Assembly: GCA_030432595.1 (NCBI GenBank)
Contig: JAUIGU010000030.1
Location: forward strand, 1 to 48,161
Source of the DNA: Phycisphaerae bacterium
GTDB taxonomy: Bacteria > Planctomycetota > Phycisphaerae > Phycisphaerales > Phycisphaeraceae
DNA length: 48,161 bases
Direction: 5' to 3'
The notes beneath the pieces are model-generated. The model was not told where the DNA came from. It saw only the letters and a list, made by a program, of their open reading frames with translations, and made no database searches. The position numbers were made by a program, and so were the translations under genes. Positions 36,928-39,857 of this stretch are shown one piece after another; position 1 is the first letter of the stretch, and each line of letters opens with the position of its first letter.

Positions 36928-38127
36928 CTATCCCGGCACCACGAAGCCGTCGATCTCCAGCCCGAAGCCCGAGAGCGCGTGCGGCGTGAACGGGTGGGCG
37001 GTGATGAGGTTCAGCCGACGGATCCCTAAGTCGCGCAGGACCTGGCAGCCGATGCCGTAGTCCATCTTGTTGGAGGGCGGCGCGGTGCCGGGCGTGGTGT
37101 GGTTGTCGCCCAGGCGGAGGCGCTCGTCCTGCGCGGCGTGGTCACCCTCGGGGGCGCTTCCGGGGGCGTGCCCGGTCTGCAGGGCTTTGAGCAGACCGCG
37201 CCCCATGCCCTCGTGCCGGAGGTACACGACCGCGCCGCGGCCGGCGTCCTGGATCATCCGCATCGACGTGCGCAGCGTATCGCCCGAGGGCTGGGTCGCG
37301 TCGCCGAACACGTCGCCGAGCAAGTTCTGGCTGTGCATCCGCACCAGCACCGGGTCGGCGATATCGATCGGCTGCCCGAAGTCGTCGCGGGCCCCCAGGC
37401 CGTCGCCGCACACCAGGGCGACGTGCGGGAACGGGTCGACCGCCGACCGGTACGCGATGAGCCGCCAGGGCCCGAACTCGTTCTCGAACGCCGTGACGTC
37501 GATCCGCTCGACGAGGCGGTCGCGTTGCAGCCGGTGCTGGATGACGTCGGCGATGGTGCAGACCTTGAGGCCGTGCTTGTCACACAGCGCGTCGATCTGC
37601 GGCCGGCGGGCCATGGTGCCGTCGTCGTTCATCACCTCGATGCCCACCGCGCAGGGGCGGAGCCCGGCGAGGCGCATCAGGTCGGTCATGCCCTCGGTGT
37701 GACCGGCCCGCACGAGCGTGCCGCCGTCGCGGGCGCGGATCGGCTGGACGTGGCCGGGGCGGTCGAAGTCGGCGGGCGTGGCGTCGGGGTCGGCAAGCTT
37801 GCGGATGGTGGCCGAGCGATCCGCCGCCGACACGCCCGTGGTGACGCCGAACCGGGCCGCGGCGTCGACGCTGACGGTGTACGCCGTGCCGCGTTGCGTG
37901 GTGTTGACCGCGGTGGGCGGGGGCAGCTCCAGCCGGTCACACGCCCGGCCGTCGAGCGTCACGAACATCATCCCCCGGCCTTCGCGGAGCATGAAGTTGA
38001 CCACCTCGGGCGTCGCGAACTCGGAGGCGCACACGAGGTCCCCCTCGTTCTCGCGCCCTTCGTCGTCAAGGACGACCACCACCTTGCCGGCACGCAGGTC
38101 TTCGAGGATGTCAGTGATGGGGTGCAT
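36928..38127 (-). CDS. ribBA: RibBA-like protein: DHBP synthase with a degenerate GTP cyclohydrolase II half
   Basis: 399 aa from ATG 38127. The first half is a complete RibB, which makes 3,4-dihydroxy-2-butanone-4-phosphate for riboflavin: DDEGRENEGDL near 20, GVTTGVSAADR near 93, RPGHVQP near 123, RAGHTEGMTDLMRLAGL near 140. The second half aligns with GTP cyclohydrolase II, but the zinc-binding C-x10-C-x-C positions are replaced: VRMHSQNLLGDVFGDATQPSGDTL has N, Q and S where cysteines belong. The YLRHEGMGRGL loop also differs from the usual YLRQEGRGIGL, and the later NNP site reads AHP. The second half is probably inactive as a cyclohydrolase. Coupled loss of activity is known for some RibBA/RibBX proteins. 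Confidence 0.88.
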   Translation of the reverse strand: MHPITDILEDLRAGKVVVVLDDEGRENEGDLVCASEFATPEVVNFMLREGRGMMFVTLDGRACDRLELPPPTAVNTTQRGTAYTVSVDAAARFGVTTGVSAADRSATIRKLADPDATPADFDRPGHVQPIRARDGGTLVRAGHTEGMTDLMRLAGLRPCAVGIEVMNDDGTMARRPQIDALCDKHGLKVCTIADVIQHRLQRDRLVERIDVTAFENEFGPWRLIAYRSAVDPFPHVALVCGDGLGARDDFGQPIDIADPVLVRMHSQNLLGDVFGDATQPSGDTLRTSMRMIQDAGRGAVVYLRHEGMGRGLLKALQTGHAPGSAPEGDHAAQDERLRLGDNHTTPGTAPPSNKMDYGIGCQVLRDLGIRRLNLITAHPFTPHALSGFGLEIDGFVVPG

Positions 38128-38150
38128 GGCGGGAACACTCGGTTAGCAAT

Positions 38151-38187
38151 GATTGCACGAAGGACGCGAAAGCACGAAGGCGCGAAG
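38151..38187 (+). repeat. Left inverted repeat of the GxxExxY cassette
   Basis: 37 bp, beginning GATTGCACGAAGGACGCG. It matches the reverse complement of 38593-38629 at 28 of 37 positions, most differences being C/T transitions. It ends 10 bp before the stop of the GxxExxY gene. Confidence 0.75.
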
Positions 38188-38196
38188 TCAAAACCG

Positions 38197-38583
38197 TTAA
38201 GTGCGTATCACGCGGGCAATCCCATCACGAAGGACTTCGTTGTCGAAGTTGATGACCAGACCCAGGGGCAGCCCGGTGGCTCTTAGATAGTTGGCTGCTT
38301 GGCGATTGAACTTTCGGGCGGTCGCCGGCACGGCTTTGAGTTCCACGACGAGTCGCTGATCGATGAGCAGATCAATTCTTCCGTCGGCTAGATCTCGCCC
38401 CTTGTAATCCAATCGGGTCGGCGCTTCGGACTGATACGGAATGCCACACAGCTCCAGTTCAATCTCCATGGCGCGATGATAGGTGGACTCTAGGAATCCG
38501 GGCCCCAGGTGTCGATGAACTTCGATCGCAGCTCCGATCACTGCCGATGTCAACGATTCCAGTTCATCATCGATCTCAGTCAA
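38197..38583 (-). CDS. GxxExxY protein (PDDEXK-like)
   Basis: 128 aa, starting at a TTG at 38583. The name-giving motif is GPGFLESTY, preceded by IGAAIEVHRHLG. The following core, GRIDLLIDQRLVVELKAV, is a PD-(D/E)-x-K nuclease-like D … E-x-K. The final LVINFDN and the short tail are typical. Such small proteins are widespread, often in repeat-rich settings, and their function is unknown. It lies inside a pair of 37-bp imperfect inverted repeats, so the 479-bp unit may have moved as a cassette. Sits between ribBA and the M16 protease gene. Confidence 0.85.
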   Translation of the reverse strand: MTEIDDELESLTSAVIGAAIEVHRHLGPGFLESTYHRAMEIELELCGIPYQSEAPTRLDYKGRDLADGRIDLLIDQRLVVELKAVPATARKFNRQAANYLRATGLPLGLVINFDNEVLRDGIARVIRT

Positions 38584-38592
38584 GATTCAGCC

Positions 38593-38629
38593 CTTTGTGT
38601 CTTTGCGCCTTCGCGAACTTTGTGCAATC
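38593..38629 (-). repeat. Right inverted repeat of the GxxExxY cassette
   Basis: 37 bp, ending TTTGTGCAATC; reverse complement of the left copy at 28 of 37 positions. It begins 9 bp after the gene's start codon side and stops 4 bp before the M16 protease stop codon. Confidence 0.75.
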
Positions 38630-38633
38630 TGTT

Positions 38634-39857
38634 TCACGGCCCCATGCGGACGACCGTCTTCGGTGACAGCGGCCACGCATCCAGCAGCCGAGACACGTCG
38701 TCCACCGTCACCGCCCGGTACGCCTCGACCTCTTCGTCCAGCGTGCGGTAGGCGTTAAGCAGAAGCCAGCGGGCGCCCAGCGCGTGCATGCGGCCGGCGG
38801 GGCGTTCACCGTGGAGCGTCACCGTGGTGGCGAGTTTGTTCACGGCACGGGTGACTTCGTCTTCCGTGAGGTCACGCTTCTGGGCCGCGGAATCGAGCGT
38901 ATTCAGCAGCGTCTGCTCGACCTCGTCGGCGCGGCCGGGGTCGGACGTGGCGTAGCCCAGGAAACTGCCCACGTGGTCGCGCGGCGAGTAGGCAAACTCC
39001 GCGTCGTCCGCGAGGCCCGGGTCGATCAGGTTCCAGTACAGCCGCGACCCGTCGGCGTCGCCGAGCACGTCCGACAGCACCTTCGCGGCGTACCGCTGGT
39101 CGTCCTGGGCGCTGGGGCCGGGACAGAGCATGGCGAGATACGTTCGCGACAACGAATCGTCGTCGATCACCAGGCGTTTGCCCTCGTGTTGCGGCTGGCC
39201 GTGGTCACGCCGGGCGTCCGTGGCGGTCCAGCCGCCGCAGCGCTGTTCGAGGTCCCGACACAGCGCCTCAAAGTCCACGCGCCCGGCGGCCGCCACGACG
39301 ATGTTGTCCGGGCTATACCGCCCCCGGAAGTAATCGCCCATCTGCTGGGGGGTCAGGGCGCTGACGGTGTCGGTCGTCCCCAGCACGCGGAACCCCAGCG
39401 GGTGCCCCGGGTAGTGCTCTTCGAGCAGCCGGTCCTGCAGGCGCCACTCCGGGCGGTCGTCGTACATCCCGATCTCTTCGAGGATGACCTTCTTCTCCAT
39501 GTCGAAGTCGGCGTCGCGCAGCGCGGGCCGGAGCATGTCCGCCAGCAGGTCCACCGCGCGCGGCAGGAACTCGGGCAGGACGTGGGCGTAGTACACCGTC
39601 TGCTCGTGGGACGTGAACGCGTTGTAGTCCGCCCCGATCTCGTCGAACTCGCGGTTCACATCGTCGGCGCTGCGGCGGTCCGTGCCCTTGAACATCATGT
39701 GCTCAAGGAAGTGCGACACCCCCATGACGTCGGGAAGCTCGTCGCGGGCACCCGTCTTCACAAAGAAGCCGACGGCCGCGGTGTGCGCATCCGGGTCGGT
39801 CTCGGACAAAACGGTCAGGCCGTTGGGCAACGCGTGGTGTTCAAACGTGATCGGCAT
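38634..39857 (-). CDS. M16 family zinc peptidase (pitrilysin/MPP-like)
   Basis: 407 aa from ATG 39857. Single-chain subunit type, like the catalytic half of mitochondrial processing peptidase. The inverted zinc site HFLEH lies at residues 49-53, with H49, E52 and H53; the third ligand glutamate is in the DMEKKVILEEIGMY region near 125. The second half has the non-catalytic partner-like fold (RVDFEALCRDLEQRCG). A partner without HxxEH is not in the window. A TATCAT hexamer ends 6 nt before the ATG; the palindrome at 39871-39896 partly overlaps this promoter. Confidence 0.9.
   Translation of the reverse strand: MPITFEHHALPNGLTVLSETDPDAHTAAVGFFVKTGARDELPDVMGVSHFLEHMMFKGTDRRSADDVNREFDEIGADYNAFTSHEQTVYYAHVLPEFLPRAVDLLADMLRPALRDADFDMEKKVILEEIGMYDDRPEWRLQDRLLEEHYPGHPLGFRVLGTTDTVSALTPQQMGDYFRGRYSPDNIVVAAAGRVDFEALCRDLEQRCGGWTATDARRDHGQPQHEGKRLVIDDDSLSRTYLAMLCPGPSAQDDQRYAAKVLSDVLGDADGSRLYWNLIDPGLADDAEFAYSPRDHVGSFLGYATSDPGRADEVEQTLLNTLDSAAQKRDLTEDEVTRAVNKLATTVTLHGERPAGRMHALGARWLLLNAYRTLDEEVEAYRAVTVDDVSRLLDAWPLSPKTVVRMGP

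Follow-up and report, generated by a model that had tools for sequence, protein, structure and literature searches.

We found that GxxExxY genes are, as a rule, bounded by inverted arrays of a short word, and that this word differs between cassettes, is shared by both arms of a given cassette, and tracks the protein phylogeny across phyla. Such a unit is probably a minimal one-gene selfish cassette, the nuclease of which would read the words at its own ends. Here, we discuss a copy from a Phycisphaerae bacterium, located in a contig of 48,161 nt (the window, meaning the whole stretch analyzed), together with its counterparts in other genomes.

The GxxExxY gene of the window (38197–38583, minus strand) has a TTG start and encodes a 128-aa protein, a conserved small PD-(D/E)XK nuclease. 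It is enclosed by a 5′ arm (38593–38629, minus strand), which reads GATTGCACAAAGTTCGCGAAGGCGCAAAGACACAAAG in the sense of the gene, and a 3′ arm (38151–38187, minus strand), an inverted array of the same kind of word with the plus-strand sequence GATTGCACGAAGGACGCGAAAGCACGAAGGCGCGAAG. Each arm is 37 nt long and lies 9 bp from the gene; the two arms are inverted and complementary at 28 of 37 positions (76%), with 405 nt between them, and the whole unit measures 479 bp, which confirms the coordinates of the tight, imperfect repeats reported in the first-pass annotation. On the purine strand, 7-nt words are joined by linkers of 1–2 nt: the four purine-rich words of the 5′ arm are arranged as CACAAAG-TT-CGCGAAG-G-CGCAAAG-A-CACAAAG, and the 3′ arm reads CACGAAG-GA-CGCGAAA-G-CACGAAG-G-CGCGAAG. 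By our reading of the sequence, seven of the nine differences between the arms are A/G transitions, and a putative Shine-Dalgarno-like AAAGGG (38591–38596, minus strand), located 7 nt before the TTG start, extends into the inner end of the 5′ arm. The unit starts 4 bp past the stop of its upstream neighbor, an M16 peptidase gene (38634–39857, minus strand), and ribBA (36928–38127, minus strand) is the downstream neighbor. The sole gene inside the unit is that of PF13366, and no transposase was found there. An Rfam scan of the unit returned only a sub-threshold snoRNA match, which was outside the unit, and there was no rRNA match in 37900–38900. The arm pair scored 19; when one flank was dinucleotide-shuffled 3000 times, this score was reached twice. 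By itself, the pair is of moderate significance only, and its weight comes from the class of loci to which it belongs.

To describe this class, 144 GxxExxY loci were assembled: 36 from the window genome and its relatives, 28 more from the phylum, and 80 from a set of other genomes (Chloroflexota, Cyanobacteria, Bacteroidota, Proteobacteria, Acidobacteria, Omnitrophota, Planctomycetota, and others). Nine loci at contig edges were dropped, which left 135, including 74 from the other genomes and many phyla. The left flank of each locus was compared with the reverse complement of its right flank and with 60 block shuffles. Inverted arms better than all 60 block shuffles were present at 116 of the 135 loci (19 lacked arms by this test), and 112 loci beat every one of 100 dinucleotide shuffles. 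By a stricter test, 89 of the 135 loci had at most one of 60 other loci’s right flanks doing as well. Among M16 control loci, only 1 of 28 passed the shuffle test (2 of the 30 were too short and were left out). Inverted word arms are thus the rule around GxxExxY genes and not a peculiarity of the window, which bears out the first-pass statement that degenerate purine-rich repeats often surround them. The purine-rich arm was the 5′ arm in 103 of the 116 armed loci, and the pooled outer end of the cassettes read TTnACC followed by the first word. The window genome itself carries seven PF13366 genes, six of which are armed, each with its own word (CGCAGAG, CGCGGAG, CACGGAG, CACAGAT, CACGAAG, and CACAAGA); the seventh (L002) has a gene-less hairpin directly behind it. 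In one of these seven copies, L004 (C49:29241–29588), the GxxExxY gene contains an in-frame TAG, yet its arms are well matched. A plasmid search with one query protein matched 8 of 72,556 records and therefore yielded no plasmid series for empty sites.

The words were then compared within and between cassettes. The variable letters of the first word agreed at 0.86–0.95 between a cassette’s own two arms, a figure that gains from the alignment used to pair them, versus 0.50–0.61 between the arms of different cassettes; the first two linker letters matched less (0.62–0.74 within a cassette versus 0.39). Arm similarity to the nearest-protein neighbor was 0.363 (n = 113), compared with a shuffled mean of 0.176 and maximum of 0.239. 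Between planctomycetes and other phyla, this nearest-protein similarity was 0.270, and the maximum in 2000 shuffles was 0.258. Word groups (CGCCAAG, CATGAAG/CACGAAG, CACGGAG, CGCAGAG, and GAT-type) appeared when the cassettes were placed in protein-tree order. The period of the arms was also related to the gene between them; here, a best lag is the top one among several tried on arms that are short, and the counts of best lags come with no shuffled control. The best lag of GxxExxY arms was 8 or 9 in 86 of 116 loci and 7 in one, and pooled identity at lags 8 and 9 was modestly in excess (0.39 and 0.38 versus 0.32 expected). Free-standing S23/four-helix-bundle genes (PF05635) of planctomycetes likewise had inverted word arms at 24 of 26 loci (4 of 30 were too short and were left out), with the best lag at 7 in 17 of 24 and an identity at lag 7 of 0.57 versus 0.34 expected.

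That arms keep to the period of their gene family and to the word of their protein clade suggests that the encoded protein, rather than one common helper, reads them. At the same time, the agreement between word and protein could arise from long co-inheritance of the gene and its ends alone, and for this reason we do not raise the reading as a whole above probable. The first-pass annotation had suggested mobilization by another enzyme, meaning a passive cassette with arms recognized by a protein encoded elsewhere and GxxExxY as cargo. The lack of a transposase in the unit and the arms found without a gene at many places (sites in genome G255 and hairpins of the window genome, both described below) fit this possibility, but a period set by gene family and a word set by GxxExxY clade would be unexpected from one common enzyme. 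Neither of the two candidate enzymes compared was associated with the family: Y1_Tnp occurred in 30 of 36 GxxExxY-positive and 19 of 25 negative genomes, and RVT_1 in 15 of 36 and 9 of 25, respectively. Six of the 36 positive genomes were without Y1_Tnp (one of these is 51% complete), and the window genome has 3 weak Y1_Tnp matches, with a best E of 2.6e-6. Mobilization in trans therefore found no support here and seems unlikely.

The protein itself is clearly a member of its family. The window protein matched TIGR04256 (GxxExxY) with 119.8 bits (cut-off 35) and PF13366 (PDDEXK_3) with 120 bits (cut-off 22). Across 72 sequences, the residues G29xxE32xxY35, D71, E81xK83, and Q95xxxY99 all reached 90% conservation or more; G29, E32, Y35, D71, and E81 were invariant, and K83 was at least 90% conserved. 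Judged from these residues, the protein keeps a full nuclease active site. The structure model of the window protein (pLDDT 94.6, pTM 0.88) predicts a clear PD-(D/E)XK fold. Among the matches listed, the best Foldseek match was lambda exonuclease (E 1.4e-3), and the Cas4 protein SSO0001 followed at E 2.1e-3, with a Z of 9.2 over 99 residues and an rmsd of 3.2. Since no Foldseek match at E 0.001 or better was among those listed and other PD-(D/E)XK proteins were nearly equal by VIA (Wolbachia CinB, Z 8.2; an HsdR, 7.9; versus 9.2 for Cas4), the model-based assignment to the Cas4/lambda-exonuclease subgroup is tentative. The Foldseek list comprises its top matches only, and a family missing from it carries no weight. 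A PDB sequence search with the family profile gave one weak match (E 0.48), PADLOC gave 0 matches for 3 proteins, and PHROGs gave one marginal match for the window protein (E 0.0041). In 10 orthologous pairs, dN/dS was 0.04–0.23, indicating that the gene is maintained for its protein and is not decaying cargo.

Under the selfish-cassette reading, the unit would consist of one gene and two inverted arrays with 3–4 copies of an 8–9-bp word. The GxxExxY nuclease may bind its own word arrays and process them as duplex, hairpin, or cruciform, and this processing would excise or insert the unit, apparently leaving no detected target-site duplication; units would presumably also be gained as a whole. 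Selection for recognition would keep the two ends of a cassette in agreement even as lineages drift apart in their word. Loss of the gene can leave gene-less arms behind. Arm-onto-arm copying at each move was considered and rejected: the cassette L219 keeps left/right arm differences like those of L220 though it is sited elsewhere, which shows that movement does not equalize the arms.

The cassettes sit in short gaps just behind stop codons. Measured from the left arm’s outer end, the stop of a same-strand ORF of at least 100 codons fell between −25 and +80 nt at 88 of 108 loci, and in 56 of those 88 it was within 10 nt; the corresponding figure for random positions was 128 of 675. Target-site duplications, which the first-pass annotation had proposed to look for, were not detected: among the 78 strong-arm loci that could be anchored, 0–1 scored 8 or more, with a control of 0.5–0.9%, although old insertions would lose a duplication. 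At one site (L210, see below), an A-rich similarity is visible, but a duplication there was rejected given the negative pooled test of the 78 cassettes. There was also no conserved target outside the arms among the anchored cassettes.

A different possibility is that GxxExxY is an immobile local gene whose arms work at the RNA level, forming a long stem in the mRNA that would serve regulation, processing, or termination. The mostly co-oriented position behind an upstream ORF, the overlap of the 5′ arm with the Shine-Dalgarno-like site, and the presence of the window copy at one site in three genera by common descent all agree with a stem. However, A/G differences between arms showed no bias toward G·U over A·C (167 versus 160), which means that RNA pairing is not visibly the property that is kept, and an immobile gene does not account for presence, absence, and exchange at fixed sites. 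We consider this explanation highly improbable.

Such changes at fixed sites were observed in genus g100, in which all 11 species had matches to the GxxExxY family, many of them fragmentary. A site at an RND gene was compared in 15 genomes of the family. Cassette A, with CGCAGAG words, occupied the site in G177, G107, G251, and G252, and cassette B, with CACAGATTT words, in G253, G254, G257, and G223; the proteins of A and B are about 2.9 substitutions per site apart on the tree. In G208, G128, and G255, B-type arms were kept and the gene was truncated or not found; remnants were present in G162, G248, and G145; and in G256 the genes overlap without an insert. At the L210 site, compared in 11 genomes, G256 has a whole cassette and G254 has arms with a truncated gene. 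No cassette was present in the other nine, where the gap measures at most about 10 nt in G257, G255, G177, G208, G107, and G253 and 30–74 nt in G252, G251, and G128; G251 may hold a footprint. Thus, the gene and its arms are present, absent, exchanged, or decayed as a whole unit at fixed sites. The truncated genes between intact arms indicate decay of cassettes, while the direction of individual changes at the two sites is not proven. The part of the first-pass proposal that treats the gene and its ends as one unit is therefore upheld at these sites, but the copy in the window is no recent arrival.

One cassette lineage was also found at different sites in different species (L219 versus L220 and L228). 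In G255, the L219 lineage is represented by a full copy, a 5′-truncated copy (L209), and several internally deleted gene-less copies, three of which have an identical deletion. In these copies, the cassette is nested within a dispersed repeat found throughout the genus, and the copies have the ends of that repeat in common. The repeat may have carried the lineage, and we therefore do not take the G255 copies as proof that the cassette has mobility of its own. For L219, the flank is the dispersed repeat itself, so that no unique empty site can be defined. Retrotransposition, which the 5′ truncation might evoke, was rejected as L209 is a single case and there is no reverse-transcriptase association. 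The dispersed repeat of g100 (e.g., L344–L348, L353, and L366–L368) starts with TAGTATCT and ends near CGTTCGGGTTA(T)G, and it holds exchangeable palindromic payloads, among them the GxxExxY cassette.

These copies bear on a further explanation, namely that the units are intergenic palindromes without mobility of their own, which recombine or ride other dispersed repeats and are otherwise spread by whole-locus exchange. The G255 cassette inside a genus-wide repeat that also carries other payloads is in line with it, as are the right flank of L220, which by our reading of the alignment resembles the right end of the g100 repeat, and the nested hairpins with different words at L199 and L202. Conversely, the differences between filled and empty RND and L210 sites begin close to the arms, anywhere from a few to a few tens of nt away, with no larger repeat around the cassettes there, and a passenger needs neither clade-specific words nor purifying selection. 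We regard passenger palindromes as quite unlikely.

The site of the window copy was also followed in relatives. Of 29 M16 loci retrieved from relatives, 24 had M16 and ribBA together, which with G036 gives 25 relatives. The space between the two genes was empty or was occupied by a cassette, by inverted repeats without a gene, or by other sequence. A GxxExxY gene was present there in the window genome (G000) and in 2 of the 25 relatives (G010 and G036), representing three genera, and the unit is accordingly not fixed at this place in all relatives. The three proteins form one clade (support 1.0), indicating one old insertion and common descent rather than recent arrival; nothing at the window’s own site indicates recent movement. 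The words differ in most units of both arms, being CACAAAG/CACGAAG in G000 and CACGGAG in G010 and G036. An empty site of the kind that the first-pass annotation suggested searching for exists in the nearest relative, G001, which is of the same genus as the window genome (M16 78% identical) and has a 36-nt gap from M16 to ribBA; no PF13366 match was found anywhere in its assembly (96% complete). This gap may reflect loss, or the cassette may never have been gained there. Among relatives, the site is thus not fixed in either state. The window cassette would be an old M16–ribBA insertion that at least two further genera have in common with it through descent and that G001 lacks.

Gene-less inverted repeats occur at the same site. 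For a hairpin test, 30 loci were considered; five did not extend to ribBA, three with too long a gap and five with a gap below 40 nt were left out, and the results are those of the remaining loci. The inverted repeats were clearly above all 40 shuffles at L051, L052, L053, and L059 and slightly above all 40 at L044, L050, L055, and L058; it is not clear that those of L053 and L059 belong to the word type. Behind M16 at L042, with ribBA outside the view, there is a word-type hairpin. In a 400-kb sample of the window genome, 29 inverted repeats had periodic arms, versus 1 in a single block-shuffled control. By our reading, 16 of the 29 were gene-less word hairpins, and the rest were coding or near-perfect palindromes. 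One source of such hairpins is seen at the RND and L210 sites, where cassettes have decayed.

The gene-less hairpins of contig C17 (L179–L198) have tandem 7- or 8-nt words (GGGGTCT, GATGGCG, CAGTAGT, and GATTTGGC) and loops of 18–163 nt; sample positions are 27318, 51755, 87205, 100008, 126853, 135795, 149733, 162050, 163269, 164240, and 329864. Those with period 7 match the arms of S23 four-helix-bundle genes, and their existence means that not every hairpin is a GxxExxY fossil. Two and three nested hairpins with different words, including CACAGAG, CGCAGATGA, and CAGGATGA, share one intergenic gap each at L199 (C14:4828) and L202 (C19:37983), respectively. L200, L201, and L203–L206 are multicopy sequence of the window genome with a single word arm (e.g., CACAGAGGGCGCGGAGAGCACGGAG, identical at three places); the copies share a long stretch ahead of the arm and a short stretch behind it. 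Another small dispersed repeat, located at C17:41687, 150740, and 288377, consists of near-identical palindromic pairs (GCCACGGTCGC..GCGACCGTG) with unrelated loops of about 40 nt.

Taken further, these observations may point to a bacteria-wide class of word-armed selfish cassettes with unrelated one-gene payloads, either a minimal Cas4/lambda-exonuclease-like nuclease with 8–9-nt words or an S23 four-helix bundle with 7-nt words, each of which would recognize its own ends, insert behind stops, and leave nested gene-less hairpins as fossils; the intervening sequences (IVS) of rRNA, known for decades, would then be its 23S branch. We propose this wider class only tentatively. No rRNA matches were found at the 20 S23 four-helix loci scanned; an Acido-Lenti-1 RNA (RF01687, 49.5 bits) lies near one S23 four-helix-bundle locus (L307:54–100). 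If true, the selfish-cassette reading and its extension would supply the widespread, unexplained annotation “GxxExxY protein” with a function and a logic for its mobility, explain many periodic intergenic hairpins, and tie rRNA intervening sequences, an old puzzle, to a general class of one-gene elements. In addition, the natural pairs of protein and word offer material for learning how a very small nuclease reads DNA.

A one-gene nuclease cassette with ends made of repeat words seems to be undescribed. In the literature searched, a body that leaves most subscription journals outside, GxxExxY was mentioned in passing, and no description of its ends or cassettes was found. The family models TIGR04256 and PF13366, of which the window protein is a clear member, describe the protein only. 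GxxExxY resembles Cas4, lambda-exonuclease, and RecB-like nucleases in its fold and in the D, ExK, and QxxxY residues, the last of which we take to be a mark of that group, but it is much smaller (128 aa), has one cysteine only in the window protein, and is encoded here beside ribBA and M16. Like MITEs and DDE transposons, the unit is short and has inverted ends, with gene-less derivatives at several G255 sites, whereas it contains no transposase, shows no detected target-site duplication, and ends in word arrays with a sequence that varies from unit to unit. REPINs, which go with RAYT (Y1) transposases, are likewise paired inverted short repeats in intergenic gaps, but the GxxExxY ends are tandem words of cassette-specific sequence and are not associated with Y1_Tnp. 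The closest described relative of this architecture that was found is the IVS of Coxiella 23S rRNA (PMC4990558). This selfish element is 428 nt long and carries an S23p ORF preceded by tandem heptamers (GACAGAT), and its terminal inverted repeats form a stem of 28 bp. Both this IVS and the GxxExxY unit have one small gene within terminal inverted repeats, whereas the GxxExxY unit sits between protein genes (ribBA and M16) and not in a 23S rRNA helix, encodes a PF13366 nuclease and not an S23p four-helix bundle, and has arms with a best lag of 8 or 9, compared with 7 for S23 arms. Hence, the GxxExxY cassette looks as if it works in the manner of the one-gene, inverted-repeat-bounded selfish element that rRNA IVS exemplify, though it is not itself an IVS member.
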